In this document: piece after piece, positions 847 through 50,182 of the stretch
How the letters are laid out: each line of letters opens with the position of its first letter
Numbering within the stretch: position 1 is the stretch's first letter
Position numbers and translations under genes: made by a program
Source: an uncultured Alphaproteobacteria bacterium
Lineage (GTDB): Bacteria; Pseudomonadota; Alphaproteobacteria; HIMB59; GCA-002718135
Direction of reading: 5' to 3'
DNA length: 64,000 nt
NCBI GenBank assembly: GCA_902521315.1
Contig: CABYRH010000001.1
Span: 1 to 64,000 of the forward strand
Notes under the pieces: model-generated
Told to the model about the DNA's origin: nothing
What the model saw: the letters and a program-made list of their open reading frames with translations, nothing else
Database searches by the model: none

Positions 847-3459
847 TTAAATTATAAATTTTGATATTTCATCTCTTATTAATTTACTTAACAGACTGTA
901 ACCAAGTACATTCATGTGTAAAGGATCTTCTGAATAAAATTTTTCAAATCCAGCATCCAGCATAGGAGAGCAAAGGTCAATATATCGCCATTGACTAAAA
1001 TTCTCAATTTTGTTTTTAATCCGTTCATTTGCATCTAAAATTGTATTTAAATAATTATTTCTGAACACACTTGGTTTAATCGATACAAAAAAACATAATG
1101 TATGAGGTAATTTTTCATTAACCTCAGAAGCAAATAATAAAAATTCATTTTCTAAATCTTCAGCACTCATTCCACTTCCTATATCATTATCCCCAGCATA
1201 AAAAATCATCTTATCAGGGTTATTTGGTACTACTATTCTATTAAAATATGTACGGCATGATACTAATGTGGAACCTCCAAATCCTAAATTTAATAAACTA
1301 TCAAATGACAAATCAGTTTTTGCATTTTCCCAATCTTTAAAAGTTGAACTTCCATATAAGACTATTTTGTTATTTTTATATTGATCTGAATATAATTTAA
1401 TTTCTAATTCTCTCACGTCTGCTTCAAATTCTTCTTCGATAGGGCTGACTAAATTTAAATTATTTATTACATCTTCATTATTAATTTTATTTTTTGATGC
1501 AGATTTTGCTAATTCAACTGCTTCTTCAACATAGGATCTAAATGTTTTTCTATATTTAGATAGAAAACTTTCTAATTCTTTTTTATTTTTCATATCATTT
1601 ACAAAATCTTTTATTTTAATTGGTTCTTTAATAACTGCAGAATAAATCGTATCAGAAATTGAATAATCAAAATTAGCTAATGCAATTGGAACAAGAAGAG
1701 GCTCTGGTTTTAATTGGTCTGCTAATAAAAATGCACCTGGTTTTAATGGACCTGGAGAGTTTGGAGTCAAATTATCTTCAGTTTCAGATGTGCCTTCTGG
1801 TGCAATAACTAAAGGTCTATTTTGGTCAAAAATATTTTGAGTTTCGATAAATAATTTACTTTTTCTTTTCTTTTTTTGTTCTTGAGTTTCATTTAAATAG
1901 TCTGACTCTGGTGTATGAACGAAAATATAATCTAAATTCTCATAATAATTATATCTCCAAAATTCTGTATTTCTAGAGTATCTAGCTATTCTTTGACCAC
2001 CATCACCATATTTTGGAAACAAAATTTTTGCACTAATAAAATGACTATCTATACTAAATTGATGTCCATTAGCTAAACCATTTTCTTCAATACTTGCCAG
2101 ATGATTATAAAAAAATATGTTTGTAGGCTCATCAGGTAAATTTTCCATACCTTTAATAACATAAGGTACTTGATCAAACGCTTTTATAAAATCTGAATTT
2201 GTTAATTTTTGTAAAGCTTGTTTATTTATTGAATCATATGAAGTTGCTACTCTGTTGTAAATTTTATTTAGTTGTTTGAAAAATCTATTTTTTCTTTCTA
2301 TACCACTTAATGTATCAATCATTAAACTAGCTATAGATTTTTCATCATCGTTACCTGTAATTATTAAATTATAAATTGTATCAAATGCTAAAGAATGAGT
2401 TAAATGACTTTCTAATAAATGAGGTATTGTATAAAGCTTTGAATTACTAGGTATTGTTGCTGAATTATCATCTAATAAATATTGAAAAAACTCTCTTTCA
2501 TTTTTAGCTGGATACGTTGTTAAGCCTGTTGAGCTTTGAATATAACGACCTAATTGCCATAATTGTCTTTTAAAAAATTTGATTGCCAATTCTGGATTAG
2601 TTTTTATTAAATTATCAATAAATTCATTTGAAAATTTTAATATCGTTGTATCTCTTGTTGATTTTAATGAATAGGGTGAGTCAATATCTTGCAAGCCTGC
2701 AGATAAGGATAATGCCACTCCCGGTCTAGCTATTGATCTTGAGTTATTTTCTATCTGATCATCTTTTAAATTTGTAAAAGAGGCTTCAACTTTACCTTTT
2801 AACAAAATATTTATTCCATCTGATTTAGTTCCTTCTAGCGTTATATATTCACCCGCAGAAAATAGCCTAACGTTTGCATAGTTTATTAATTCATCTAAAT
2901 CGTTATCATCTAGAAAAGCTAAAAATGCAGAATTTTTAATTCTTTTTGTATTTACAATATCTCCACCAGTTTTAACACCATCTGCTAAATTAATATTTTT
3001 TTGTTCAATGGGTTTTTCCAAATTGCGTGATGACCAAATTAAATTAATAGATTCAAATAATAAATAAGAATAAAAAAAACTTGCATAGTCGGGATCTACC
3101 TCTTCTAATTCTTTTAATTTTTCTATTTTAAAAGAGATATACTCTGAGTTACCTTTAATAAATATATCTGACATATATCTACCTGGTGCATTTAAGCCTG
3201 AAATACCAAGAGGTGATCCAGAATTTTTTAGTGTTGCTAGATTATAAAAAACATTATTATGATATTTTACGAATTCTGCCTCACCTTTCAAAAGAATAAA
3301 AATTTGATCTGCAATACCATGCTGTTCAGCAATTTTGATATCTTCATTATTTTTATGTAATTCGGCACCAGAATTTATTAAATCTTCAGTATTTTTTTTT
3401 GGAGATAAAGAAAAACCTTTATCTACTAGTATTAAAGATATTTTTTCACTTAAATTCAT
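847..3459 (-). CDS. Tripartite protein: two cyclic-nucleotide-binding-like domains, PlsC-like acyltransferase, SGNH hydrolase
   Basis: An 870-residue protein with no obvious signal peptide. Residues about 35-145 and 175-310 look like two cNMP-binding beta-barrel domains (ILLKGEAEF, INILLKGKVEAS). About 440-640 resembles a glycerolipid acyltransferase, with NHLASIEEN in the position of the HX4D box and PEGTSE matching motif III. About 690-870 is an SGNH/GDSL hydrolase: GSSTF (Ser block), GFGGST (Gly), AGDNDIG (Asn) and DPLHMN (Asp/His). The seen order suggests a cyclic-nucleotide-regulated lipid acyl-transfer/hydrolysis enzyme; that role is inference. HX4E replaces the usual HX4D. The zinc peptidase gene lies 48 bases upstream on the same strand. 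Domain calls are by motif only. Confidence 0.75.
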   Translation of the reverse strand: MNLSEKISLILVDKGFSLSPKKNTEDLINSGAELHKNNEDIKIAEQHGIADQIFILLKGEAEFVKYHNNVFYNLATLKNSGSPLGISGLNAPGRYMSDIFIKGNSEYISFKIEKLKELEEVDPDYASFFYSYLLFESINLIWSSRNLEKPIEQKNINLADGVKTGGDIVNTKRIKNSAFLAFLDDNDLDELINYANVRLFSAGEYITLEGTKSDGINILLKGKVEASFTNLKDDQIENNSRSIARPGVALSLSAGLQDIDSPYSLKSTRDTTILKFSNEFIDNLIKTNPELAIKFFKRQLWQLGRYIQSSTGLTTYPAKNEREFFQYLLDDNSATIPSNSKLYTIPHLLESHLTHSLAFDTIYNLIITGNDDEKSIASLMIDTLSGIERKNRFFKQLNKIYNRVATSYDSINKQALQKLTNSDFIKAFDQVPYVIKGMENLPDEPTNIFFYNHLASIEENGLANGHQFSIDSHFISAKILFPKYGDGGQRIARYSRNTEFWRYNYYENLDYIFVHTPESDYLNETQEQKKKRKSKLFIETQNIFDQNRPLVIAPEGTSETEDNLTPNSPGPLKPGAFLLADQLKPEPLLVPIALANFDYSISDTIYSAVIKEPIKIKDFVNDMKNKKELESFLSKYRKTFRSYVEEAVELAKSASKNKINNEDVINNLNLVSPIEEEFEADVRELEIKLYSDQYKNNKIVLYGSSTFKDWENAKTDLSFDSLLNLGFGGSTLVSCRTYFNRIVVPNNPDKMIFYAGDNDIGSGMSAEDLENEFLLFASEVNEKLPHTLCFFVSIKPSVFRNNYLNTILDANERIKNKIENFSQWRYIDLCSPMLDAGFEKFYSEDPLHMNVLGYSLLSKLIRDEISKFII

Positions 3460-3507: not shown

Positions 3508-4212
3508 TTATCTTCTTATAATTGACTTAAAAATATTGATAAAAGATAACAGTATTATTTTTAATCTAAATATACTTACAATGGATTGAGCTAAATATGT
3601 TAATGCAGCAGCTCTTAAAACGGATTTGCATTGGTACATATTCTCTCTAGGAACAAATCTTTTGAGTATTGGTAAGGCTCTCTTAAAACTTGCATCAAAT
3701 TCTACAGGAAGAGTAATCAAATGGATTAGTACATTTGTAGATAAGCATCCCATTATTATTATCGCAGCAATAAGGGTGATAAATGGACTTTTAGTAAAAG
3801 CAAATATTGATGGTAGTCCTATAATTAATAAAAATGAACCAATTCTTTGAAAGATCATTGTTTTTTCAATTAATGATTGTCTAAGAATAAGTGGTTTGTA
3901 TTTTTCTTTATCTTGAATTGCATGACCAATTTCGTGTGCAACAACCGCAATGCTAGTAATACTTTTTTTATCAAGTTTATCTGTAGCGATATGTATTTTT
4001 TTTTCTTTAGGATTGTAATGATCTAATTGCTGAATAGGATTAATTGATACATTGGTAATTTTTTCTTCTTCAAGGATTTTTTTTCCAAGTTCTCTACCTG
4101 TGAAAGGCATATCAGGTAAAATTTTATTATATTTTTTTAAAATATAATTTACCCATAAACTTGGTAGAAACATTACAATAAATGGTAAAAAATAGTAAAA
4201 TAATTTAATCAC
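3508..4212 (-). CDS. YugP-type neutral zinc metallopeptidase, membrane-bound
   Basis: A 234-residue predicted membrane protease. The metal motif HEIGH lies in VVAHEIGHAIQDKEKY near residue 95, in the setting typical of the YugP/Zn_peptidase_2 family: an N-terminal membrane segment, and after the motif two hydrophobic segments (about 130-165). EFDASFKRALPIL follows, matching the family's third-ligand region with E/D. The start is GTG (reverse complement of cac at 4210-4212). It lies upstream of the cNMP/acyltransferase fusion on the same strand and may share a transcript. The physiological substrate is unknown. Confidence 0.85.
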   Translation of the reverse strand: MIKLFYYFLPFIVMFLPSLWVNYILKKYNKILPDMPFTGRELGKKILEEEKITNVSINPIQQLDHYNPKEKKIHIATDKLDKKSITSIAVVAHEIGHAIQDKEKYKPLILRQSLIEKTMIFQRIGSFLLIIGLPSIFAFTKSPFITLIAAIIIMGCLSTNVLIHLITLPVEFDASFKRALPILKRFVPRENMYQCKSVLRAAALTYLAQSIVSIFRLKIILLSFINIFKSIIRR

Positions 4213-5488: not shown

Positions 5489-6466
5489 TTAAACTGATAA
5501 AATCTTAATATAATGTGATAATTTTTCACCTGCATCCCAGGCATCACTTAGACTTTTTCCTAGAATCCAATCTCCACTTAAAAATATTTTATTATCCTTA
5601 GAACTAATCCAATTTTTTTTTGAAATACTATTATAACTGACTTTTGTTTGTGCAAATAGCCATCTGTGTGATTTAATAAAACTTATCTCATTTTTTATAC
5701 CAAATGTTTTTTCAAATATTGATTGAGCGTATTTTTCTAGATCAGATTTATCAATGCTAATATTGTTATTTGTATATTCAGAACTCATATTTAATACCCA
5801 ACATTCATCGGATAATTCATTAAATTTGATATTTTGATTCATAAAAAAACTAATATCTTTATGAAGATTTAATCCCGCTTTAATATTTATGTTGTTAATA
5901 TCTTTATAACTTAACATTACAGTATGTATTGGATCATAAGATGGTTCGCTAACAACCTGAGTAAAATCAATCAAATCTTTTGAAAGTTCTTTTGATTGTA
6001 AATACGGTATACAAATTAACACATAATCAAAATCTTCAAATTCTTTCTTTTCAGAAAATAGTGAGAAGAGATCATTACTATTTTTTGAAATTTTAATTAT
6101 TTTTGAATTTAAATAACTTTTTACTTTTATATTATCAAAAATAGACTTTGGAATAGAATTCATTCCATTTTGACCAATAATAATTTTTTTTCTAGTTTTT
6201 TTATTTTTTAAATAATCTGTTGCAAAATCTATTTCTATTACTTGTCCCAAATTATATCTACTTATTACTTCATTTAATTGATTTACAGAATGATTTGTCG
6301 AAAGATAATGTGCACCATGATCAAAAAGATAATTATCATGCTTTCTAGTAGATACTCTTCCTCCTGGTCTCCATGATTTATCAAAAATTGTAATATTATG
6401 TTCTTGAAGATTATAAGCAAGAGACAAACCAGTCATCCCAGCCCCAATTATTGCAATATTTTTCAC
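5489..6466 (-). CDS. FAD-dependent amine-oxidase/renalase-like oxidoreductase
   Basis: A 325-residue flavoprotein. The N-terminal dinucleotide motif is IIGAGMTGLSLAYNL, followed by the GGRVSTR motif and FDHGAHYLS typical of the COG3380 (renalase-like) NAD(P)/FAD proteins. The C-terminus has FLSGDWILGKSLSDAWDAGE, the second FAD-contact motif. The start is GTG directly after the stop of the upstream 67-residue ORF (TAA|GTG), so the two are probably co-translated. Substrate unknown. It converges on the aminotransferase gene with a 2-base gap. Confidence 0.85.
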   Translation of the reverse strand: MKNIAIIGAGMTGLSLAYNLQEHNITIFDKSWRPGGRVSTRKHDNYLFDHGAHYLSTNHSVNQLNEVISRYNLGQVIEIDFATDYLKNKKTRKKIIIGQNGMNSIPKSIFDNIKVKSYLNSKIIKISKNSNDLFSLFSEKKEFEDFDYVLICIPYLQSKELSKDLIDFTQVVSEPSYDPIHTVMLSYKDINNINIKAGLNLHKDISFFMNQNIKFNELSDECWVLNMSSEYTNNNISIDKSDLEKYAQSIFEKTFGIKNEISFIKSHRWLFAQTKVSYNSISKKNWISSKDNKIFLSGDWILGKSLSDAWDAGEKLSHYIKILSV

Positions 6467-6670
6467 TTAGTTAATGTTAATTATTTGAAAATTTTTTTTG
6501 CCTGAAGATTTAATTTTTTTTAAACCAAATTTACTACATAGATTTTTGTATCTCTGTTTTGCTGGTAAGTTAATTGTTTTAAAATGTATATTATCGTGAC
6601 CAAACATCATTTTCTGACCATTAATTTCATATAATTTTTTATAAATACTAGATTTTCTTCTGATAACCAT
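6467..6670 (-). CDS. Small basic protein, unknown function
   Basis: A 67-residue lysine-rich ORF with no recognised domain. It is probably a real gene: it sits in a tight minus-strand string, 3 bases after the 27-codon membrane ORF and directly before the FAD oxidoreductase GTG with no spacer. It has no membrane segment or cysteine pair. It might assist or regulate the flavoprotein, but that is only positional inference. Confidence 0.5.
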   Translation of the reverse strand: MVIRRKSSIYKKLYEINGQKMMFGHDNIHFKTINLPAKQRYKNLCSKFGLKKIKSSGKKNFQIININ

Positions 6671-6673
6671 AAT

Positions 6674-6757
6674 TTAATAGAAAAAATATATAGTTAAATT
6701 TAAAGCAGCAAAGATAAATACTATGGCAATAGCTGCGTATAAATTTCTCTTGTTCAT
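6674..6757 (-). CDS. 27-residue single-pass membrane microprotein (below ORF-track size)
   Basis: ATG at 6757 to TAA at 6674. The product begins MNKRNLYAAIAIVFIF and is nearly all hydrophobic after a short basic N-terminus, giving one predicted transmembrane helix. It lies first in a three-gene string with the 67-residue ORF and the FAD oxidoreductase. A TTGACT/TATAAA promoter ends only 5 bases before the ATG, which would make the mRNA leaderless. Small size limits confidence. Confidence 0.45.
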   Translation of the reverse strand: MNKRNLYAAIAIVFIFAALNLTIYFFY

Positions 6758-6762
6758 ATCTA

Positions 6763-6792
6763 TTTATAATTAAAATTATACTTAAAAGTCAA
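6763..6792 (-). promoter_or_regulatory. Sigma70-like promoter for the 6757-5489 operon
   Basis: On the minus strand TTGACT (6792-6787) is followed after 18 bases by TATAAA (6768-6763). Transcription would start at or within a base or two of the ATG at 6757, so the first gene would be leaderless. Seen by eye only. Confidence 0.45.
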
Positions 6793-6801
6793 GATACTAA
6801 A

Positions 6802-7659
6802 TTAATTTAACATTAATGATTTTAGGAAATCTAAGTTTTCAATTAATCGTCTTAATTCTTCTGGATCTAGTCCTTTTAAATTTTCTTTAAATAAATTTTG
6901 ATAGTCTAACGTATCAATACGATCGGTATAAATTTCTTTTAAAGAAATTGTATTTGAATTATCATAATCATAATTACCAATTAATATTTTCGATAATGCA
7001 GGAAATATTAGTGATGTAGTTGTATAAGTTGCAAATCCTATTTCTCTGTCTTCGTCTTGTCTTTTGTCAATAAAGGTAAAATAAATAGCTATTCTTGCTG
7101 CACGTGTTAATTCTGCTACAGATAATTCATCATCTTGTGATACATCTAAAAATGAAAAAGTTTCATTAATACAATTTGCGGGATTGCTATCATTATTACA
7201 TGTTTCAATTAATTGAGAATTCATTAAGTTAATAATTTCTCCATAAATAATTTGAAAAACACTAGGGATTGATTCACATTTTTCATAAACAGAATACTCT
7301 GATGAATTTAAAAAAGAATAATCTATACCATCCCAACCATCAGGAGCAGTAACTTCAAGTAAATTATCACCATCTTTTTTTAAAAAATAATAATAACTTC
7401 CATCTAATTCCCCCCATTTATAAGCTGACCAATCTTGTACCTTTGAGGTTTTGGACACATTAAAGCCAACATATGTCTCGTCAATCCACATACTTGTATT
7501 ATTTGATATTATAAATACTTGATATTCTGCGTCACAATCATCACTCCAAATACCTTGCATATCTTTTGGAAAATTATCTTCAAATATTAATTCTGCATTC
7601 AGGTGAAATGGTAATAATAAAAAAATACTAAAAATTAATTTTACTAAATTATTCTTCAT
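6802..7659 (-). CDS. Exported EF-hand calcium-binding protein
   Basis: A 285-residue protein with an N-terminal signal peptide (hydrophobic stretch ending near LNAELIFED). Two EF-hand-like loops are visible in the C-terminal half: DVSQDDELSVAEL and DYDNSNTISLKEI, each with acidic/Ser/Asn residues at loop positions 1, 3, 5, 9 and Glu at 12. Paired Cys residues occur in the N-terminal half, fitting a periplasmic location. The start overlaps the stop of the upstream lipoprotein gene by 11 bases, implying translational coupling. The N-terminal domain is unrecognised and the function is unknown. Confidence 0.65.
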   Translation of the reverse strand: MKNNLVKLIFSIFLLLPFHLNAELIFEDNFPKDMQGIWSDDCDAEYQVFIISNNTSMWIDETYVGFNVSKTSKVQDWSAYKWGELDGSYYYFLKKDGDNLLEVTAPDGWDGIDYSFLNSSEYSVYEKCESIPSVFQIIYGEIINLMNSQLIETCNNDSNPANCINETFSFLDVSQDDELSVAELTRAARIAIYFTFIDKRQDEDREIGFATYTTTSLIFPALSKILIGNYDYDNSNTISLKEIYTDRIDTLDYQNLFKENLKGLDPEELRRLIENLDFLKSLMLN

Positions 7660-8158
7660 AAGGCATAACTCTTATTACATCTCCGTAAATAATTACAACT
7701 CTTTGCCCATTCGGAAGGGCATTATTATCTCCTTGTACAAAAGCCTTTTCTTGATCATTTTGGCAATTAGATGTGTTATTACCACATTCATCAATATTCA
7801 CTATATATTGAAAGCCATCATGATTACCAATTTTAGCTTGAATTACTGAGCCCATAGCAGCTCCTCCAATAGTTCCATATACTATAGCAATATCTTGACA
7901 CTTAGTTCCTAATATTTCTTCTTCTCCACATATTTGAGAAGCTAAAAGACCTCCTATCATTGCTCCAGCAGTTGCTCCAATCCAATCACTTTCACCTTCA
8001 ATTTTTACAGGAAGAGAGGTTTTAATTGTTCCATATTCAATATTAGTTACTTTTTGTGCATCAGACTTTTTGACCTTATTTGGAGATGTTGTATTACAAG
8101 AGATTAGTGCAAAACTAATTATCAGAGGAAATACCAATAACTTTACTAATTTGATCAT
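7649..8158 (-). CDS. Glycine-zipper lipoprotein
   Basis: 169 residues. A type II signal peptide ends in the lipobox FALISC, so the mature protein would be lipid-anchored at Cys21. The middle has a glycine-zipper pair (GATAGAMIGGLLAS and GTIGGAAMGSVI) as in SlyB/Pcp/17-kDa-antigen outer-membrane lipoproteins, interrupted by a Cys-containing insert (QICGEEE..TKCQD) not usual for SlyB. The C-terminus resembles the family's small beta domain (NGQRVVIIYGDVIRVMP). It is co-transcribed with the EF-hand protein, and a joint envelope role is inferred. Confidence 0.7.
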   Translation of the reverse strand: MIKLVKLLVFPLIISFALISCNTTSPNKVKKSDAQKVTNIEYGTIKTSLPVKIEGESDWIGATAGAMIGGLLASQICGEEEILGTKCQDIAIVYGTIGGAAMGSVIQAKIGNHDGFQYIVNIDECGNNTSNCQNDQEKAFVQGDNNALPNGQRVVIIYGDVIRVMPYEE

Positions 8159-8254
8159 AAAATTATAAATTATTATAGTTAAAAATTGTCTAAAATAAGC
8201 AATTAATTTTAATAAATCATATAAATTTTCTAATAACTTACTATTTAAATATTG

Positions 8255-9733
8255 ATGAAAAGTGTATTTTTAATTCTTGGAAATCAATTATTCCCACATA
8301 AACACCTAAGAAAATATAAAGACTCGACTATTTTTATGTGTGAAAGTTTTGATCTTTGTTCTTTTCAAAAACATCATAAATTAAAACTCATTCTTTTTCT
8401 GTCCTCAATGAGATCTTATGCTGATGAACTAAAAAAAAATAAATTTAAAATTAATTATATTGATTTAAAAAAGGATTTTAAAATATCCTACGAAAAAAAA
8501 TTAGAAAATTTTATAAAAAAAAATAAATTCGAAGAATTAATTTCTTTTGAAATTGAAGATAAATTTTTTGAAAAAAAAATAAGCACCTTATGTAAAAAAA
8601 ATAAGATTAAATTAACTTTTATACAATCACCCATGTTTTTAAATTCAAGAGATGAATTTAAAAATTATTTAAGTAAAACAAAAAAACCTTTTATGGCAAA
8701 TTTTTATAAAATTGCCCGTGCAAAAATAGATATTTTGATGGAAAATAATAAGCCTAAAGGTGGAAAATGGAGCTTTGATGAAGATAACAGAAAAAAGCTC
8801 CCTAAAGATATTAAAATACCAGAAATGATTACTGCAAAAGAAACAAAGCATACAAAAGATTTAAAACAACAAATAAAAACAATTTTTAAAAATCACCCAG
8901 GCCAAGTAGATAATTTTTGGCTACCTACAACTTATGATGATGCAGTAAAATGGTTAGATTATTTTATTATTAAAAAATTTAATTTATTTGGTGATTACGA
9001 AGATGCAGTTGATACTAATAATAACTTTTTATTTCATAGTGTTTTAAGCCCCATGATTAATTTAGGTTTATTAACACCAGATCTAATAATTGAGAGGGTA
9101 AGAAAAGTTGAAAATAAAATTAAAATTAATTCTTATGAAGGTTATATTAGGCAAATTATTGGATGGAGAGAATTCATTAGAGGAATTTACCAAAATTTTG
9201 ATCAACAATTAGAAGAAAATAATTTCTTTCAACATAAAAATTCTCTTACTAATAAATGGTATAACGGTACAACCGGATTAGATCCTTTAGATCACTCAAT
9301 TAAAAATGCTCAAAAATATGGGTACACTCATCATATTGAGAGACTAATGGTTTTATGTAACATTATGAACTTATGTGAAATTAAACCTAATGAAGTTTAT
9401 AATTGGTTTATGGAAATGTTTGTAGATAGCTCTGATTGGGTAATGTCACCTAATGTTTATGGTATGGGATTGTTTAGTGATGGAGGTATATTTAGTACCA
9501 AACCTTATATTTGTGGTTCAAGTTATTTTATGAAAATGATGAATTTTAAAAAAGGTAATTGGAATGATATTATGGATGGATTGTATTGGCGTTTTATTAA
9601 TAAAAATAGAAAATTTTTTCAATCTAATCCTCGATTAAATATGATGGTTAATATTTATGATAAAATGAATACTGAGAGGAAAAATCATATAATTAAGAAA
9701 GCAAATCAGTTTATTCGTGATAATACCAATTAA
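8255..9733 (+). CDS. Photolyase-related protein (FeS-BCP/PhrB type) lacking most Fe-S cysteines
   Basis: Prokaryotic (6-4) photolyase/cryptochrome-like protein, about 492 residues. The antenna-type N-terminus is SVFLILGNQLFPHK. The FAD region shows VRKVENKIKINSYEGYIRQIIGWREFIRG and the C-terminal core SDWVMSPNVYGMGLFSDGG, FSTKPYICGSS. In the PhrB family four Cys bind a [4Fe-4S] cluster. Here one (NLCEI) remains, while the CxxC and the CPF cysteine are replaced by a shorter linker (MMNFKKGNWNDIMDGLYW). The ORF track starts at TTG 8252; the ATG at 8255 gives the usual start. The stop overlaps the Nudix ATG by one base. Whether it repairs DNA or senses light is unknown. Confidence 0.85.
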   Translation: MKSVFLILGNQLFPHKHLRKYKDSTIFMCESFDLCSFQKHHKLKLILFLSSMRSYADELKKNKFKINYIDLKKDFKISYEKKLENFIKKNKFEELISFEIEDKFFEKKISTLCKKNKIKLTFIQSPMFLNSRDEFKNYLSKTKKPFMANFYKIARAKIDILMENNKPKGGKWSFDEDNRKKLPKDIKIPEMITAKETKHTKDLKQQIKTIFKNHPGQVDNFWLPTTYDDAVKWLDYFIIKKFNLFGDYEDAVDTNNNFLFHSVLSPMINLGLLTPDLIIERVRKVENKIKINSYEGYIRQIIGWREFIRGIYQNFDQQLEENNFFQHKNSLTNKWYNGTTGLDPLDHSIKNAQKYGYTHHIERLMVLCNIMNLCEIKPNEVYNWFMEMFVDSSDWVMSPNVYGMGLFSDGGIFSTKPYICGSSYFMKMMNFKKGNWNDIMDGLYWRFINKNRKFFQSNPRLNMMVNIYDKMNTERKNHIIKKANQFIRDNTN

Positions 9734-11215: not shown

Positions 11216-11274
11216 TTAAAAAATTAGATAAAAAAAAGATTTTCATCTCAAATCTCAAGAGGTTTACTCCTTAA
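11212..11274 (+). CDS. Possible 20-residue leader peptide
   Basis: ATG at 11212 runs for 20 codons (MVKKLDKKKIFISNLKRFTP) and stops at TAA, whose last base is the A of the ATP-grasp ATG (TAATG). This arrangement allows termination-reinitiation coupling. Its start codon is buried in the hairpin above. Basic and short, with no homology recognised. It could be a chance ORF. Confidence 0.35.
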   Translation: MVKKLDKKKIFISNLKRFTP

Positions 11275-12680
11275 TGTTTAATGAAATGTATCAATCTGAG
11301 TCAGTTATAAGAAATCATTATAACAACATTAATGATTGGTTAGATCAAATGACTTCAAAAGTTATTCTTGAAAAGAATGCTGAAGCAGAAACTCATTTTA
11401 GAAATATTGGAATTACATTTTCTACAAACAACGAAACTGCAAGAGAAAGAATTATTCCGTTTGATTTAATTCCAAGGATATTTACCTATACTGAATGGTT
11501 AAGGTTAGAAAGAGGAGTAATTCAAAGAGCTAAAGCACTTAATGCGTTTCTTGCTGATATTTATAATCAAGGTGAAATAATAAAAGCCAATATAATCCCT
11601 AAAGAAATTATTTACAAAAAAAAATCTTTTGAACCTTCAATGTTTGGGTTTTCTCCTCCTAGAGATATCTATAGTCCTATAATTGGTATTGATTTAGTAA
11701 GAACAGGCCCTAATGATTATTTTGTTTTAGAAGATAATTGTCGAACACCAAGTGGTGTTTCCTACATGCTAGAAAATAGAGAAATAATGATGCGAATGTT
11801 TCCCGATCTATTTCATAACAACAGAGTAACACCAATAGATGACTACCCAACAAGACTTTTGCAAACCTTGATGAGTTTAGCTCCTATTAAATGTGAAAAT
11901 CCTGAACCAGTATGTGTGTTACTTACACCTGGTCCTTTAAATAGCGCTTATTACGAACATAGTTTTTTATCAGATCAAATGGGTATTGAAATGGTTGAAT
12001 CAACAGATTTATTTGTTGAGGGAAAATTTCTTTATATGAAAACAGTTGATGGTCCAAAAAGAGTAGATGTAGTTTACAGAAGAATTGATGATGATTTTTT
12101 AGATCCTCTATGTTTTAATCCTCAATCTGTAATTGGTATTCCAGGAATTATGGATGTTTATAGAACAGGTGGTGTCAATATCTGTTCAGCTCCTGGAGCA
12201 GGCATAGCTGATGACAAAGCAATTTATATTTATGTACCTGAGATGATTAAATTTTATTTAGGCGAACAACCAATCTTAGATAATGTTGAAACATGGAATT
12301 GCGAAAAGGAACAAGAATTAAAATATGTTTTAGATAATATAAATGAACTTGTCGTGAAAGAGGTTGATGGATCTGGAGGTTATGGGATGTTAATAGGCCC
12401 AAAATCTTCTAAATCCTCTATAGATGAATTTAAAACAAAACTTTCAACAAATCCAAAAGGATATATAGCTCAACCTTTACTTGATCTTTCATTTTCACCA
12501 ACACTCATCAAAAATCAAGTTGAGGGAAGAAGGGTAGATTTACGTCCATTTTGTTTAATTGGAGAGCAAGCTCAATTAAGTTCTGGTGGTTTAACTAGAG
12601 TTGCAATGAATGAAGGTTCGTTTGTTGTGAATTCTAGCCAAGGAGGTGGTGTGAAAGACACATGGGTTTTAGCTGAATGA
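11274..12680 (+). CDS. Circularly permuted ATP-grasp ligase-like protein (COG2308)
   Basis: 468 residues, usual for the CP_ATPgrasp_2 family (formerly DUF404/DUF407). Seen: IGIDLVRTGPNDYFVLEDNCRTPSG near residue 140, YRRIDDDFLDP, VKEVDGSGGYGM (nucleotide-binding loop) and RRVDLRPFCLIG near the C-terminus. ATP-grasp enzymes form carboxyl-amine bonds; this group is predicted to make peptide-like or amide links, substrate unknown. It is followed by alpha-E and transglutaminase-like genes, the classic partner set. AAGAGG lies 11 bases before the ATG. Tandem glutamine riboswitches in the leader tie it to nitrogen status. Confidence 0.85.
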   Translation: MFNEMYQSESVIRNHYNNINDWLDQMTSKVILEKNAEAETHFRNIGITFSTNNETARERIIPFDLIPRIFTYTEWLRLERGVIQRAKALNAFLADIYNQGEIIKANIIPKEIIYKKKSFEPSMFGFSPPRDIYSPIIGIDLVRTGPNDYFVLEDNCRTPSGVSYMLENREIMMRMFPDLFHNNRVTPIDDYPTRLLQTLMSLAPIKCENPEPVCVLLTPGPLNSAYYEHSFLSDQMGIEMVESTDLFVEGKFLYMKTVDGPKRVDVVYRRIDDDFLDPLCFNPQSVIGIPGIMDVYRTGGVNICSAPGAGIADDKAIYIYVPEMIKFYLGEQPILDNVETWNCEKEQELKYVLDNINELVVKEVDGSGGYGMLIGPKSSKSSIDEFKTKLSTNPKGYIAQPLLDLSFSPTLIKNQVEGRRVDLRPFCLIGEQAQLSSGGLTRVAMNEGSFVVNSSQGGGVKDTWVLAE

Positions 12681-12689
12681 GAAATAAAA

Positions 12690-13625
12690 ATGTTAAGTAG
12701 AACTGCTGAATATCTATATTGGATAAGCCGCTATATGGAGCGAGCAGAAACGACAGCCAGGCTTTTGGATGTTGGTTATAGAATGTCTCTTTTTCCAAAT
12801 CCAAGTGGTTATAATAATGAATGGGAATCAGTTTTATCCGCTGCTGGCGCAATTGAAGGATATAAAAATAAATATGATACAATTGAACAAAGAAATGTTG
12901 AAGATTATTTATTTTTTGATGAAAGTAATACTTCATCTGTTTACAATTGCATTCTTAATGCAAGAAATAACGCATTAGTGGTCAGAACTTCCTTTACCCC
13001 TGAGTCTTGGTTAGCAATTAATAAAACTTATCAAGAGATATTAAACTTAAAAGAAAAAAAATTTTCTAAATCTGATTTACCTGATCTTACAGAGTGGACC
13101 ATAGAACAAGTAAACTTATTTAGAGGATCGTTAAGTTCATTACTTAGAAATGATGGTTATAATTTTCTTTTTCTTGGTTTATTTATTGAAAGGGCTGATA
13201 ATTCTGCCAGATTATTAGATGTAAAGTATTTTGTTTTATTACCTAAGCCTCAATATGTAGGTGGTAATATCGATAATATGCAATGGAGTATATTGCTTCG
13301 CTCTTTATCTTCTTTTAGAGCTTTTAGATGGGCATACGATGGTAATATTACCGCAACTAAAATTGCTGACTTTTTAGTTTTAAATAATAATTGCCCTAGA
13401 TCTTTAAGTTTTTGTATTCAGAATATTGTTAAACATTTAACTAACCTAACATGCAGTCCAGAAAAAGTTGGAAGAATTTATAATAATTTAAAAGATCTAA
13501 ATACCAAAATTCAAGAAGAAAAAATAGAAACTATTGTTGAATATGGACTTCATCAATTTGTAACACAATTTATTAGAAAAATATCTAGTGTTGATAACGA
13601 AATACATAAGGAGTTTTTTAATTAA
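12690..13625 (+). CDS. Alpha-E domain protein (DUF403, COG2307)
   Basis: 311 residues, all-helical. The N-terminus MLSRTAEYLYWISRYMERAETTARLLDV is the signature of the alpha-E family; FIERADNSARLLDVKY is its internal repeat. Members occur almost always next to the permuted ATP-grasp and transglutaminase-like genes, as here (9 bases after one, 1 base before the other). The biochemical function is unknown; it probably acts with the ATP-grasp enzyme on the same substrate. Confidence 0.88.
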   Translation: MLSRTAEYLYWISRYMERAETTARLLDVGYRMSLFPNPSGYNNEWESVLSAAGAIEGYKNKYDTIEQRNVEDYLFFDESNTSSVYNCILNARNNALVVRTSFTPESWLAINKTYQEILNLKEKKFSKSDLPDLTEWTIEQVNLFRGSLSSLLRNDGYNFLFLGLFIERADNSARLLDVKYFVLLPKPQYVGGNIDNMQWSILLRSLSSFRAFRWAYDGNITATKIADFLVLNNNCPRSLSFCIQNIVKHLTNLTCSPEKVGRIYNNLKDLNTKIQEEKIETIVEYGLHQFVTQFIRKISSVDNEIHKEFFN

Positions 13626-13626
13626 T

Positions 13627-14466
13627 ATGGAACTAATAATCGAACACACAACTAAATATGAATATAAAAATCCAGTTGCGGGATTAATTCAAACCACTAA
13701 ACTGCATCCTTCAGAATATAATGGTCTTAAAATTCTAGAGTGGAATGTCCATAACGACTCAGCCAAAAAATCAAATATTTATCAGGATGGTGAAGCTAAT
13801 AATATTCAAAGTTTTACAAATACAAACAAAGTGAAAAAAATACAATTTACAGTTCTTGGAAAAGTTGAAACATTTGATACAAAAGGAATTTACCAGAGCG
13901 CCTCTGATAAAATAGATCCATTAGTCTACTTAAGAGAATCAAATTTAACAAAAGCAAATGCAGATATAAAAAATTTAGCTATTGAAGCTAAAAATGGTTT
14001 TAATGAAAACGAAAATCTAGAAACATCTCATAATTTGATGAATCTAGTAGCTGAAAAAATTGAATACAAACCTTTAACGACAAATAATCAAACAACAGCT
14101 ATTGAAGCATTTAATCAGAAAAAAGGAGTCTGCCAGGATCAAGCTCATATTATGATTGCCGCAGCAAAAACTTTAGGAATACCTGCTAGATACGTTAATG
14201 GTTATATGCATAACAATTCCCATTCTTCAGAATTTCAATCTACACATGCGTGGGCAGAATTTTATATAAATGATTTAGGTTGGGTCGGATTTGATCCCAC
14301 AAATAAGTGCAGTCCAGATGAAAGATACGTACGTGTTTCTTGTGGACTTGATGCAAGTTACGCATCACCTATTAAAGGTGTTTTTTATGGAAATATTAAT
14401 AATGATGCTCAAATAGAAAATCTAGATATTCATGTTCAAACTTTAGAAAATAATTCTCAACAATAA
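13627..14466 (+). CDS. Transglutaminase-like cysteine protease (COG1305)
   Basis: About 279 residues. The catalytic triad is visible: Cys in KKGVCQDQAH, His in STHAWAEFY, Asp in GFDPTNKC. The N-terminal beta domain starts MELIIEHTTKYEYKNPV, the normal start for this family, so the ORF-track start at 13588 is too long; ATG 13627 has AAGGAG 13 bases upstream. It is the third member of the ATP-grasp/alpha-E/transglutaminase operon. No signal peptide, so cytoplasmic. Probably cleaves or transfers amide bonds made or used by the ATP-grasp partner (inference). Confidence 0.87.
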   Translation: MELIIEHTTKYEYKNPVAGLIQTTKLHPSEYNGLKILEWNVHNDSAKKSNIYQDGEANNIQSFTNTNKVKKIQFTVLGKVETFDTKGIYQSASDKIDPLVYLRESNLTKANADIKNLAIEAKNGFNENENLETSHNLMNLVAEKIEYKPLTTNNQTTAIEAFNQKKGVCQDQAHIMIAAAKTLGIPARYVNGYMHNNSHSSEFQSTHAWAEFYINDLGWVGFDPTNKCSPDERYVRVSCGLDASYASPIKGVFYGNINNDAQIENLDIHVQTLENNSQQ

Positions 14467-37064: not shown

Positions 37065-39629
37065 TTATTTACTCATCAGTAAGGTTTTTTCTAAAGCTAT
37101 TTTAAATTCATTTTCAGTGTTGTGGTTATAAAAGGGTACAGCGGTAATTAAATAAGAGTCTGCATTAATGGATATAACTTCTTTATGATCACTAATTTTC
37201 TTCAGAAAATCTTCTTTCCACTTATCATTTGCAATTAAGTGCTGTCCTTTTGGTTCGATAAAAACTTGAAATATTAAATCTTCCTCATTGCGTTGTTTAC
37301 AAAATAAAAGAAAATCAGGTTCAAAAGCACGACCAAAATCATCAAAGATTTTTATTTCTCTTTCATTTCTCACTAAATAAATATCTTTGAATTTAGTTTT
37401 AATACCTTCTAAACGCCTTGCAAAAAGTTCAACAAATTGTTTTTCTTCACTCGTACCATAATTTGCATTAAAGACATACCAGTCTTTATCTGCAACTAAG
37501 TTTTCTTGTCCGTTTGATCTTTCATCATTTTTATTAATTCGAATTTCTTTATCTTTAAATGTACTTTGAACTGGAACTTTAAAGAAATTAGAACCCTCAT
37601 AATCAGGTGTATTATTTTTAATTTGATTTTCAATATTTTGTAAAATTCCGTTTAGGGCTTCTAAATAATCATCATTTGAAATTTTTTTAATTCTATGACT
37701 TGTTCCAACAAAAGATATTTCTAGGTCTGCCAGAAATTCTGAGTTATCTATGAGATTTGATATAGAATTTATACTTGGAAAATAATGAGACAAACTATCA
37801 AAATAAAAAAATGGGTTTTGACTCAAGGCATATCGAATAATATGTTTTGGTATCTCATATAATTTAATATCTTTAGTTTGAATTGACTCATCAGATGATT
37901 CAGTAGAATCCTTTTCATTAAAAGGGCTGGATATTTTTCCAATACCCGAAGATAAAATATGTTTATAATTTATTAGCTTTATATTTAAATCATTAAAAGA
38001 TTTTACGTTATTCAAATTCTTTGCTATCTTTTTATTAATAAATACAAATCCTTTTTTATAAAAATTTGTTTTTTTAAATTCAGACTTTAATTTTAAATCA
38101 AGTTTAATAAAATTAGCATCATCTTCAAATATACCTGAGTCAACAAGTGCTCTCTTTAATTCTGAGATATAACGACTATCTTCTTTAGTATGATAATATA
38201 ATTCTTCTAATATTTTTAAGTCGTTAAAAATATCATCATCAAATTTTCGAGTATACTCATCTTGACCTTCCTCAAGAGAGAAGGGGTAGTATCTAGCACC
38301 ACGACCAATTAATTGAGCTTCTGAAAGTGTTGTTTTACCAGGTTTTCCTTTATTATTATCACGACCATCATAAAGTCGAACAATATCAAACAAGTTCAAA
38401 ACATCCCAACCTTCATTTAATTTTTGAACTGCAAAAACTGCTCTAATTGGATTATTGAGATCCTCTAATGTATTTAATAATATTTGATTTTGTTCAGCTT
38501 CTGAGTCATTATTTGCACTTAAGCAATTTTCCAATTTAAAATTTATTTTAATACGTTTTACAATTTCGCTAGTTGATATATTTTTGGACTCAAAAAATTT
38601 AAATGCCTTTTTAACAATTGATATTTCAGAGGTATTGTAAATTTCTTCTACCATTTCAGAAGAAAGATTATCAATTAAATTATGAAAATTTACTTTGTTT
38701 TGTTCGGACTCTCTGATTGTTTTTTTTGACTTGAAGAGTATAACGGGTTTTAAGTTTATATTGTTTGAAGATGCTAATTCTTGACGATACAAATTTAAAA
38801 TTAGAGCCTGAATTATTCTATCTTCGTCCTTATACAAACTTCTTATTAAGTTAATCTCTTTGGAGTATTTATCATTACGAAATTCTGCAAGGTCATACTT
38901 AAAAATTACCTTATCTTGATAATGCTTAAGCAATGCAACTGCGTCAGTATCAATAGTTGCTGTAAATTCCAGAAGAATGTTGTCAAAGTTAGAATCATGA
39001 ATTTTTTTTACAGTATTTTCCCAACTTCCAAATAAATTTCCAGATTTTGTACCTGCTACTAAATGGTGAGCCTCATCTGCAATTAAAACTAATTTCTTTT
39101 CCTTAAAGTCTTCATAGGTAACACTGTTTTCTTTCGTTTTATTCAAGTCAAGATGAAGCTGTTGGATGGTGGTGAATTTTAAGTTGATATTTTGTTTATC
39201 TGTTTCTTCAAAATTGTCGATTTCTTTTATAAACACCTCATTACCATCTATGATAATTTTTTTATTGAATAAATATTTTAAAGCCTCTGGATTGAGGAAA
39301 TTATCTTTGGTTTTTTGAATGATATTGTTGCTATTTACAAAGAACAAAAAGTCTCGGTACCCTTTTTGATATAGGAATAGAATTAACCCTGCCATAATCA
39401 ATGTTTTTCCACTTCCCGTAGCCATATTATAAAGTAAATGAAGTGGTTTTTTTGGCTTACCCTCAAAATCTTCTTGGTCTACATAAATATACCTTTTGAA
39501 TGCTTCAATCTGATAAGATCGTTGGCCAAATCCAGGTTTCAAATTATTTTTAATGCTATTAGGTAAATCAATTTCAGTTAATAATTTTTTAACAATTGGG
39601 TTGTTAAATATATCATTAAGAGAAGCCAT
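37065..39629 (-). CDS. res: Type III restriction enzyme, Res subunit
   Basis: 854 residues. ATP-dependent translocase and nuclease of a type III system. Seen: Walker A YNMATGSGKTLIMAG near residue 70, DEAH box VLIADEAHHL near 185, motif VI region EAQLIGRGARYYPF near 460, and a C-terminal PD-(D/E)xK nuclease FEPDFLLF ... IEPKG near 800. Length is near normal for the family. It lies 4 bases downstream of mod, in the order mod-res. It appears intact. Part of the accessory island. Confidence 0.92.
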   Translation of the reverse strand: MASLNDIFNNPIVKKLLTEIDLPNSIKNNLKPGFGQRSYQIEAFKRYIYVDQEDFEGKPKKPLHLLYNMATGSGKTLIMAGLILFLYQKGYRDFLFFVNSNNIIQKTKDNFLNPEALKYLFNKKIIIDGNEVFIKEIDNFEETDKQNINLKFTTIQQLHLDLNKTKENSVTYEDFKEKKLVLIADEAHHLVAGTKSGNLFGSWENTVKKIHDSNFDNILLEFTATIDTDAVALLKHYQDKVIFKYDLAEFRNDKYSKEINLIRSLYKDEDRIIQALILNLYRQELASSNNINLKPVILFKSKKTIRESEQNKVNFHNLIDNLSSEMVEEIYNTSEISIVKKAFKFFESKNISTSEIVKRIKINFKLENCLSANNDSEAEQNQILLNTLEDLNNPIRAVFAVQKLNEGWDVLNLFDIVRLYDGRDNNKGKPGKTTLSEAQLIGRGARYYPFSLEEGQDEYTRKFDDDIFNDLKILEELYYHTKEDSRYISELKRALVDSGIFEDDANFIKLDLKLKSEFKKTNFYKKGFVFINKKIAKNLNNVKSFNDLNIKLINYKHILSSGIGKISSPFNEKDSTESSDESIQTKDIKLYEIPKHIIRYALSQNPFFYFDSLSHYFPSINSISNLIDNSEFLADLEISFVGTSHRIKKISNDDYLEALNGILQNIENQIKNNTPDYEGSNFFKVPVQSTFKDKEIRINKNDERSNGQENLVADKDWYVFNANYGTSEEKQFVELFARRLEGIKTKFKDIYLVRNEREIKIFDDFGRAFEPDFLLFCKQRNEEDLIFQVFIEPKGQHLIANDKWKEDFLKKISDHKEVISINADSYLITAVPFYNHNTENEFKIALEKTLLMSK

Positions 39630-39633
39630 TTAA

Positions 39634-41685
39634 TTATTTCTTGTTTTGATAAAATTCCTTGTTAATTTTTTTTTCTTCTTCTGAGCAATTAAAATCTTTA
39701 TCATTAAGAGAGGACAGGTTTACATAAAGTTGATTTTTATCTAAAAGTTCACAAAGATATTTTTTTTGGGAAATTAAATCTAAATTTTTAAATTCCTCTA
39801 TATTCTCATCTTGTTTCTTTGTGTCTATATTATAATTTAAAAAACTTTTTGATTTCATTTCCCCCCAAATTTTTATTACCGTTTTTTGATCTGCTGCTTC
39901 TTCAATTTGTTCAATAAATGTTTGATTATATTTCTTTAATTCTAAGTAGATAAAATCTTTACTATTATTTTGTGTCATAATTTTTTGAACTCTTTTTGTA
40001 GTTACTGTTTCTATATAATCTAACTGTTCCGCAATTATATATTGACGATTGCCATCATCTTCTTTGTTTAATTCTAAAACAGCATGTGCTGTAGTTCCGC
40101 TTCCAGCAAAAAAATCAAGAACTATATCGTTAGCATATGGATCAGTGAATATTTCAACAGCATCTTTTACAGTATGAATTGATTTTGGATAGTTAAACAA
40201 CTTTTCTCCATCAAAAATTTTTTTTAATAGTATAGTGCCATGTGCTGAAGCATCGTATTCTGATTCATCCCAAATAGTTTTTGGTTTTCTTCCTTTTTTC
40301 ATTCTATATTTAAGTTTTACTGTGTATTTATTTTTATTTATAAAAACTTTAATATCTCCATTTTTGACACTCTTTAAAATTGCTTTTCTGTCAGCCCACC
40401 TCCAAACTCTTCTTTTTTCTAATGAATCAATTGGAAGTATTTCTACAATGTCAGATTTATTTTTTTGTAAAAAATCATTTGAATTTATTTCAATTATTTC
40501 TTCATCTTTGTTTAATTTCAAAATTTTTTGAGGCTTGTATTTACTTGAGATACTACCTAATCTTTTACCACCAACAGCAATAATTTTCTCTTCACTTTTT
40601 GAGAAATATAAAGCAAATTCTGAATTTGGACGTTCTTCAGGTGTTGAGGTTCCACCACTTCTTTGGAAAGGCAGAAATTTAAATTTTCCCTCTTTGTCTT
40701 CTTCATCAAATTCTTTTTCCTGTTTCTCCGTAAGTGTTTGATTATTAACTTCTACTTCATCAATTTTTTTAGCATAAAATAATGCATATTCATGACAAGT
40801 AGCAAAATGAGAATTTGTTGTTCGACCTCTTGGATTACTTTGAACAACTATTGTTCCTATATAATTTTCTCTTCCTAAAATTTCATCACATAAAATTTTT
40901 AAATGAGCATACTCTTCATCATCTATTGCAATACAAATAGCGCCATTATCGGTTAATAATTTTCTGGCTATGGAGATGCGATTTTGCATGAATGTTAACC
41001 AAGTTGAGTGATTGAAGGTATTGTTATATTTGAACGTGTTTGCTGCACCTCCTGTATTGTATGGTGGGTCAACATATATAAATTTAATTTTACCGACAAA
41101 CTCCTGTTCTAGTGAATGTAAGCAAAGTAGATTATTTCCTTTTATAATAATATTATCTCTAATAATTCCATTTTCATCACGATTAATATTCAAAAGTTTT
41201 TTTTCCTCATTTGAATTAAAACGTTTAGCATTAGTGATGACTTTTGGTTCTAAAAGTTGTGTAATTTCATCTTGAGCTAATATTTCATTGAAAAAAATTT
41301 CTTCTCTATTGTCCTCCTCACGACTTTGTCCTCCTTCTAAAATACAATCTTTAAAAGGCCATACCAAAGCTATACTATTTTGTTGTTTAAGATATTTACC
41401 ATCAATTGTTAATCCTACTTTATTTTTGAATTGAGTATAACTGTCGTTTAAGAAATTTTTCTGCTCTAAAAATTGTACAAACAAACTTTGATTAAAAACT
41501 AAAGATTCTTTTACCTTTATAAAAAATTTATTTTTAAGATCAGAATTTTCTAGTAATAATTCAATTAATTCTTCGTCAAAATTATTAGCTTTATTTAAGA
41601 CAACCCATTTTTTTAGTTCACCAGCATCTGTGACGAAATTAGGTTCTTTTTTAAGTTGGTTTTCTAAAGTTAGGAAAAGATTCAT
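39634..41685 (-). CDS. mod: Type III DNA methyltransferase, Mod subunit
   Basis: 683 residues. N6-adenine methyltransferase of the beta class: catalytic DPPYNTG near residue 207 precedes the AdoMet motif DFFAGSGTTAHA near 520, with the target-recognition region between. It methylates host DNA and gives sequence recognition to Res. Appears intact with a start at ATG 41685. No simple-repeat tract for phase variation was seen at its 5' end beyond short T/A runs. The plus-strand ORFs inside it are shadows. Confidence 0.93.
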   Translation of the reverse strand: MNLFLTLENQLKKEPNFVTDAGELKKWVVLNKANNFDEELIELLLENSDLKNKFFIKVKESLVFNQSLFVQFLEQKNFLNDSYTQFKNKVGLTIDGKYLKQQNSIALVWPFKDCILEGGQSREEDNREEIFFNEILAQDEITQLLEPKVITNAKRFNSNEEKKLLNINRDENGIIRDNIIIKGNNLLCLHSLEQEFVGKIKFIYVDPPYNTGGAANTFKYNNTFNHSTWLTFMQNRISIARKLLTDNGAICIAIDDEEYAHLKILCDEILGRENYIGTIVVQSNPRGRTTNSHFATCHEYALFYAKKIDEVEVNNQTLTEKQEKEFDEEDKEGKFKFLPFQRSGGTSTPEERPNSEFALYFSKSEEKIIAVGGKRLGSISSKYKPQKILKLNKDEEIIEINSNDFLQKNKSDIVEILPIDSLEKRRVWRWADRKAILKSVKNGDIKVFINKNKYTVKLKYRMKKGRKPKTIWDESEYDASAHGTILLKKIFDGEKLFNYPKSIHTVKDAVEIFTDPYANDIVLDFFAGSGTTAHAVLELNKEDDGNRQYIIAEQLDYIETVTTKRVQKIMTQNNSKDFIYLELKKYNQTFIEQIEEAADQKTVIKIWGEMKSKSFLNYNIDTKKQDENIEEFKNLDLISQKKYLCELLDKNQLYVNLSSLNDKDFNCSEEEKKINKEFYQNKK

Positions 41686-45852: not shown

Positions 45853-45914
45853 AATATTATAATTTAATTATTAATTTTTGATGATTATACTATAGATTTT
45901 TGATAAAAAAAATT

Positions 45915-47729: not shown

Positions 47730-48466
47730 TCTTTATTTTTTCTATCTGAAAAAGCACTTGCTAATATACCGGCTGGTAAAGCAACAGCTCCAATTCCAAA
47801 CAATGCAGTGCATACTGCAGCAAATCTACCTAAAAATGTAATAGGTGTATAATCACCATAACCTGTTGATAGTAAAGCTGCAGAACTTACCCATAAAGCT
47901 CTCGGGATTGATCCAAAAGCTTCTGGTTGCAAATCTCCCTCGACAACATAAAGTAAAGTAGCAGATAATAACATAAGGCTTAGAGTAATTAGTAATGAAA
48001 ATATTAATTCATGCCTTCTGTCGTATATTGCATGTAAAATAAAATTTACTGACTCACTAAAACGTCCAAATCTTAAAATACTAAATATTCTTATAGCTCT
48101 TAATAATCTTACTAAAAAACCTTCATTTATTCCTATTAAAAATAATGGGATAAGTGCAATTGCATCAATTAAAGCAGGGAGAGTAAAAATATATTTTATT
48201 TTTCCATTAAGTCCTTTGAATTTATCTATTTGATCAACAGCTACTAATCTACAAATATACTCAATTAAAAATACTATACCAAAAAAAAGTTTTGCTGAGT
48301 CAAAGAGCTGCGAGTATTGATTATAAATCAGTTTTTCTGACTCAATAACAACAAAAACGCAGTTCAATATAATGAGAAAGAATATAATTTTTTCAATTAA
48401 TGTAAAATCCTTCTCTTCAAGACCAAAATGTAAGTGTTCAAATAAATACTTTGAAAATGAATTCAT
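47726..48466 (-). CDS. Voltage-gated potassium channel (Kv-like)
   Basis: 246 residues with six membrane helices. The K+ selectivity filter LLSTGYGDYTP is canonical, and S4 is VRLLRAIRIFSILRF with three or four Arg. S6 GIGAVALPAGILASAF has the gating glycine. The C-terminal tail is short, with no cyclic-nucleotide domain. It lies between the two cyclases, divergent from the MscS-CNB channel with 34 bases between the genes. Confidence 0.9.
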   Translation of the reverse strand: MNSFSKYLFEHLHFGLEEKDFTLIEKIIFFLIILNCVFVVIESEKLIYNQYSQLFDSAKLFFGIVFLIEYICRLVAVDQIDKFKGLNGKIKYIFTLPALIDAIALIPLFLIGINEGFLVRLLRAIRIFSILRFGRFSESVNFILHAIYDRRHELIFSLLITLSLMLLSATLLYVVEGDLQPEAFGSIPRALWVSSAALLSTGYGDYTPITFLGRFAAVCTALFGIGAVALPAGILASAFSDRKNKD

Positions 48467-48500
48467 TTTTATATAAATTCTTTATAGTAAAAATTATAAA

Positions 48501-50171: not shown

Positions 50172-50182
50172 AATAAACTCCC

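Follow-up and report, generated by a model that had tools for sequence, protein, structure and literature searches.

The 870-aa protein encoded at positions 847–3459, on the minus strand of the window (the whole 64,000-nt stretch of alphaproteobacterial DNA analyzed here), joins two cyclic-nucleotide-binding (CNB) barrels, a linker, a PlsC-like acyltransferase (LPLAT), and an SGNH hydrolase in a single chain. All of its domains belong to known families or are related to them, but the arrangement is undescribed in the searchable literature. The core of two CNB barrels, linker, and PlsC-type acyltransferase is common to carriers from Pseudomonadota to Bacteroidota, where it is paired with an ester hydrolase at every locus that could be judged; in the query protein this partner is the fused C-terminal SGNH domain. 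Chances seem about even that the protein is soluble and remodels the acyl groups of a lipid, its core working with the hydrolase, most likely by deacylating and reacylating a lysophospholipid or other O-acylated lipid (a Lands-type cycle). Removal of an acyl ester would fall to the SGNH domain, and installation of one, from acyl-ACP or acyl-CoA, to the LPLAT domain, while the CNB pair would be a regulatory or assembly module; its ligand, if it has a small one at all, is probably neither cAMP nor cGMP. The substrate, the direction of the reaction, and the mode of action and ligand of the CNB pair are what we infer from sequence.

The gene is complete, with an ATG at 3459 and no internal stops on translation, and has full-length, single-frame orthologues. 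An assembly artefact or chance ORF can be ruled out, since dozens of genomes assembled independently carry the fusion in a single frame. Domain borders were taken from sequence profiles; positions are given below for each part, all on the minus strand. A profile made from eleven family members and compared with the PDB matched CNB structures at each barrel and SGNH structures at the C-terminus, and Pfam scans found no match to a patatin domain. No membrane helix was found in the protein, with a 19-residue hydrophobicity maximum (1.08) that is too low for one, so it is probably soluble, and cytosolic or peripheral. The earlier note, made from the letters alone, had read this frame as a single 870-residue protein with two CNB-like barrels, an acyltransferase with a PEGTS motif, and a complete SGNH hydrolase, in an order it did not know from any described enzyme, and had proposed profile searches for the domains and a search for the same architecture. 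That reading held: the frame is intact, CNB, acyltransferase, and SGNH profiles were all found in the query or its homologues, and the same domain order was found in its own genus, in the Pelagibacteraceae, and in families f118 and f215. No published description of the CNB-CNB-LPLAT-SGNH order was found in the searchable literature, which leaves out most subscription journals.

A search of a public genome collection gave 80 loci that were retained. Orthologues in the query's own genus are full-length, at 70–98% identity, and many full-length copies at 55–57% identity are found in the Pelagibacteraceae. Single-frame orthologues are present in 34 of 101 close relatives (mostly incomplete genomes, with a few matches partial at contig ends), and, at the level of the order, in 56 of 162 genomes, all from a single genus. 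With sampling at the class and phylum level, rare full-length copies at about 30% identity were found in two more families of proteobacteria, f118 (G277, G381) and f215 (G677, G662). Six relatives (G343, G549, G552, G1139, G1242, G1236) have no SGNH part, and in the bacteroidete Persicobacter the CNB-CNB-LPLAT and SGNH parts are separate genes. Prevalence is about 1% of the sampled genomes; the taxonomic spread is wide. Two of the relatives without an SGNH part are divided further. The CNB1 and LPLAT parts are in separate frames in G1242 (L184:6729–8765), with one TAG between the halves, and CNB1 is also a separate gene in G343, which places the break in the module between the two CNB barrels.

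The SGNH/GDSL hydrolase domain (positions 862–1446, about residues 672–866) was recognized from PF13472 and from PDB structures 3p94, 4ppy, 2hsj, and 6njc. The match of the query to PF13472 (Lipase_GDSL_2; residues 718–855) scores 32.1 bits against a cutoff of 32.9, but blocks I, II, III, and V are all intact (G-S-S705, GFG728GS, GDN758D, and D845-PL-H848), and the Ser, Gly, Asn, and His of these four blocks are all present and invariant, so that the domain is complete, as had been claimed. The nucleophile Ser705 (1345–1347), and D845 and H848 of the D845-P-L-H848 block (916–927), are invariant in all SGNH-bearing rows of alignments A1 and A3; S705, G728, N758-D759, D845, and H848 are invariant in 11 orthologues, and the catalytic residues in all seven SGNH-bearing rows of A3.

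The linker (2170–2562, about residues 300–430) matched no Pfam domain. It is conserved in all relatives and looks helical by inspection, with invariant columns at W301, S340-x-L342, T354, E373, and L397 in alignment A3. The LPLAT domain that follows (1540–2157, about residues 435–640) is assigned from PF01553 and TIGR00530. The PF01553 match in the query is weak (residues 507–593, 18.2 bits vs. a cutoff of 23); relatives overall score about 31–47 bits, including four named examples above the cutoff (L143, L120, L140, and L081, at 38.8, 39.1, 30.9, and 31.0 bits), and TIGR00530 (AGP_acyltrn) was matched in seven of eleven members. The query has the motifs NH453LASIE, S-I-D471-S-H, FISAK, APE555GTS, and LVPIALANF. 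Motif III (P-E-G-T-S, residues 554–558, positions 1786–1800) reads PEGTSET in the query; PEG is invariant in all rows of A3, and PEGTS, E555-G556-T557 included, in the eleven orthologues.

The motif I histidine, H453 (2101–2103), is likewise invariant in 11 orthologues. Motif I is HX4E in the query (NHLASIEEN), HX4D/E in close relatives, and NHLAAIDDN in the Pelagibacteraceae; in the wider family the Asp of HX4D, at H+5, is not kept, so catalysis may not be canonical, and D471 (in S-I-D-S-H-F) is kept instead. All nine A3 rows with H453 also have D471, and the two f118 rows, with Ser at 453, have Cys at the D471 position. From this joint retention and joint loss we infer that D471 belongs to the LPLAT active site.

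The f118 copies, from one alphaproteobacterial genus (L136:1095–3710 and L137:6179–8788), have lost part of motif II as well as H453 (to Ser) and D471 (to Cys), with the architecture kept and the SGNH domain intact. Acyl transfer is apparently not needed everywhere, and with a complete SGNH domain retained and LPLAT residues lost, these copies are probably at most hydrolases. Such copies would fit a mainly hydrolytic enzyme throughout the family, in which SGNH does the chemistry, LPLAT binds or presents the lipid, and the CNB barrels act as a scaffold. This is quite unlikely, however, given that H453 and D471 are kept in every sampled lineage but f118 (alignment A3), along with the PEG motif, and that relatives lacking the SGNH part retain LPLAT.

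Both barrels are recognizable as CNB domains by profile, the second directly and the first through homologues. CNB2 (2596–2868, residues 198–288) matches PF00027 at 30.8 bits (E 3e-7), above the curated cutoff, and its best bacterial relative in the PDB is 3mdp. CNB1 (3100–3372, about residues 30–120) was unmatched in the Pfam scan of the query, and is placed from PF00027 on the aligned region of L141, alignment A3, and a motif scan. Two cNMP_binding stretches are present in L141, with the best match at residues 31–120, which correspond to CNB1; L143, L140, and L136 also have two each. The conserved cassette of CNB1 is G-[WIV]-S-[AG]-x3-P-x-R-[YFH], with the query version G85-ISGLNAPG-R94-Y, lacking the cassette Glu. 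It is strongly kept from Bacteroidota to ocean Alphaproteobacteria (alignment A3, motif scan), suggesting that CNB1 has a job.

That job is probably not cyclic nucleotide binding. In the PKA cassette, the Glu contacts the ribose 2'-OH. Its position is occupied by I, V, or W in CNB1 and by L, I, W, or F in CNB2 (Leu252 in the query) in every aligned relative. The role of the phosphate-binding cassette Arg has also been described (PMC10959531); an Arg is retained in CNB1 only, one position off the cassette Arg in the ungapped PDB alignment, and CNB2 has not kept it. In the ungapped alignment of CNB1 to PKA RII-beta, Trp falls on the Glu and Tyr on the cassette Arg/Lys. The CNB module thus looks like a diverged one that probably does not bind a cyclic nucleotide.

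The earlier note had also pointed to two cyclases in the window and supposed that a cyclic nucleotide would steer both acyl transfer and acyl removal. The cyclases are there, both of class III (45900–47729 and 50183–51469), but the steering did not stand up, and it is very unlikely that cAMP or cGMP from them binds the CNB barrels and controls both enzyme activities. The two CNB folds, the cyclases themselves, and Arg94, which lies beside the cassette Arg position and is kept in CNB1 of all relatives, would be expected of such a system; the substitutions at the cassette Glu, the PKA alignment, the lack of detected cyclases in Pelagibacteraceae carriers and G381, and the gene that the window's cyclases flank all argue against it. 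Genomes of carriers were searched with PF00211, PF01295, and PF01928, covering classes III and I and CYTH. A cyclase is present in the query's own genus. No class I, class III, or CYTH cyclase was found in any of eight Pelagibacteraceae carriers (incomplete single-cell genomes, although the eight absences agree), or detected in G381, and in G662 and G677 classes I and III were not found and there is one CYTH protein each. No other CNB genes were found in the Pelagibacteraceae carriers, where this protein holds the only CNB domains detected in the genome.

The two class III cyclase genes in the window flank (45900–51469) a gene for an MscS-type channel with a CNB of its own, whose cassette looks canonical (GEGSLLTGEPRSA; GEGSLL..EPRSA). 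These genes, about 45 kb from the query gene, form a candidate cyclic-nucleotide-gated mechanosensitive channel unit, and the channel is the predicted natural target of the window's cyclases. In G549 an FHA-GGDEF gene (L172:7987–9012) lies just upstream of the CNB-CNB-LPLAT gene and co-oriented with it, an arrangement unseen in other lineages. A diguanylate cyclase as the general source of a CNB ligand was rejected, since such a gene is found beside the G549 copy only.

The loci without a fused SGNH domain give the clearest view of the pairing with an esterase. In Persicobacter (L140), a stand-alone SGNH gene, identified by Pfam, starts at 6865, 1 bp downstream of the CNB-CNB-LPLAT gene, whose end is at 6863. 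In five of the six SGNH-less relatives the CNB-LPLAT gene is instead adjoined by one for an AXE1-family alpha/beta-hydrolase, at distances of about 0 (G549), 2570 (G552), 25 (G343), 0 (G1139), and 112 bp (G1242); whole-genome searches found exactly one AXE1 gene in each of these genomes. The probability of five such co-locations by chance is about 7e-15 if they are independent, although two of the five share a family. The count should be free of selection bias, because the loci were picked by the CNB-LPLAT profile and not by AXE1; the sixth SGNH-less locus (G1236) was left out, since it lies where a contig ends, in a genome that is 85% complete. Among genomes with the fused SGNH, no AXE1 was found in the own genus, f215, G381, or the Pelagibacteraceae, and G277 has one marginal match of 24 bits. 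Since AXE1 genes lie beside the SGNH-less copies and there is no convincing one in the SGNH-fused genomes, the esterase partner is apparently not lost but kept, swapped for a non-homologous one.

In a maximum-likelihood tree of the shared core, the SGNH-type and AXE1-type copies are split by one branch (support 80/80), and none of 500 shuffles gave as low a value; Persicobacter is a long, uncertain branch. A single exchange of esterase type would be the simplest account of this tree. The pairing of acyltransferase and esterase, seen at every locus that could be judged, is strongly supported, and together with the exchange it supports the idea behind the earlier note, in which adding and removing acyl groups are linked activities. 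A more elaborate proposal is a good deal more tentative, and we are inclined to doubt it: that the CNB pair senses a non-cyclic-nucleotide ligand (e.g., an acyl carrier, CoA, a nucleotide, or a lipid headgroup) and so controls a membrane acyl switch, made up of the acyltransferase and an obligatory esterase that has been exchanged between two unrelated hydrolase folds.

The identity of the partners also bears on the kind of acyl group involved. De-acetylation is the main activity known for the AXE1 family and for many SGNH enzymes, so the group may be short and the target something other than a membrane lipid. LPLAT would then add, and SGNH or AXE1 remove, an acetyl-type group, with a lipid headgroup, a PAF-like lipid, or a non-lipid molecule as the acceptor. 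What the two unrelated partner families share, as a matter of general knowledge, is mainly de-O-acetylation of small or sugar-like esters; AXE1 is what was matched at the SGNH-less loci, and the SGNH matches include a sialate O-acetylesterase (6njc) and a PAF-acetylhydrolase-like protein (2hsj). They also include lysophospholipase L1, however, and the closest named family of the acyltransferase, 1-acylglycerol-3-phosphate acyltransferase (TIGR00530), uses long acyl chains. Overall a short-chain cycle seems unlikely, and a cycle on a lysophospholipid or similar O-acylated lipid is preferred here.

Other neighbors of the gene are lineage-specific. Immediately upstream in the window, and co-oriented with the query gene, is one for a putative neutral zinc metallopeptidase (3508–4212, minus strand; PF04298, 189.6 bits). 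It also adjoins the orthologues in L002, L014, L039, L040, and L046, but not the Pelagibacteraceae, f118, or f215 copies; with adjacency confined to the own genus, it is not part of a conserved unit. A conserved operon partner other than the esterase was ruled out, a DUF4174 gene being found only in the Pelagibacteraceae and a flavin reductase only in f215. The DUF4174 gene is about 10 bp downstream in six of six Pelagibacteraceae loci (e.g., L050:8599–9147, L056:8607–10202, and L061:8599–10697), and is followed by a variable number, from zero to three, of genes for pilin-like proteins (FTLIELLVVVAIIGILAA).

Several other features were noted near the gene or elsewhere in the window. In G1139 (L183:6670–11232) the CNB-LPLAT gene is directly followed by genes that appear, by eye, to encode a circularly permuted ATP-grasp and an alpha-E protein; genes of a similar ATP-grasp/alpha-E kind, with a transglutaminase-like gene, are found about 8 kb from the query gene (11274–14466), again by eye, which may be coincidence. 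Photolyase-type and FAD oxidoreductase genes are found near the gene in the query's genus (5489–9733 in the window) and also in the Pelagibacteraceae (L050:4288–5745 and 12066–13043), with photolyases of different types in the two groups. By eye, two adjacent minus-strand genes at 37065–41685 resemble the pair of a type III restriction-modification system, a helicase-like Res with a Mod methyltransferase.

It is unusual for a single chain to combine an acyltransferase with an esterase, since they would undo each other unless they acted at different positions or were controlled. The exchange of partners (AXE1 gene, SGNH gene, or fused SGNH) suggests that selection keeps the pairing itself. Carriers include very streamlined ocean bacteria, which rarely keep dispensable genes, and its presence there could reflect a system for adjusting membrane lipids in abundant marine lineages. 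The family also offers a CNB group with a directly testable ligand question.

Compared with known systems, the acyltransferase resembles the PlsC/LPLAT family (PF01553; TIGR00530) in its NH-x4-[DE], FxxAK, PEGT, and VPxxxxNF motifs, but the query falls below the Pfam cutoff, the HX4D Asp is not kept family-wide, there is an additional conserved D471, and the domain is fused to CNB barrels and an esterase. The hydrolase has blocks I, II, III, and V intact as in SGNH/GDSL hydrolases (PF13472; PDB 3p94, 4ppy, 6njc, 7pzg), and stand-alone SGNH proteins from plasmids have about 27–34% identity to it; whereas those stand alone, the query domain is one part of a large protein in which neither a membrane segment nor an export segment was seen. 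In logic, the arrangement of NTE/PNPLA6 comes nearest, with several CNB domains ahead of an enzyme acting on phospholipid acyl esters. NTE/PNPLA6 and PNPLA7 have three CNB domains and a patatin lysophospholipase (PMC9025805), and the effects of NTE mutations on cyclic nucleotide binding are unsettled (PMC6852622). The patatin domain is unrelated to the LPLAT and SGNH domains of the query, so that no homology is expected beyond the CNB domains, and NTE, unlike the query, has a transmembrane segment. For the CNB pair, a precedent for a changed cassette meaning a changed ligand is the trypanosomatid PKA regulatory subunit, in which altered cassette residues abolish the response to cyclic nucleotides and select nucleosides (PMC10959531). 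That protein is a eukaryotic kinase regulator, however, with changes in the phosphate Arg and a nearby Ala, while in the query it is the ribose-binding Glu that has been replaced.
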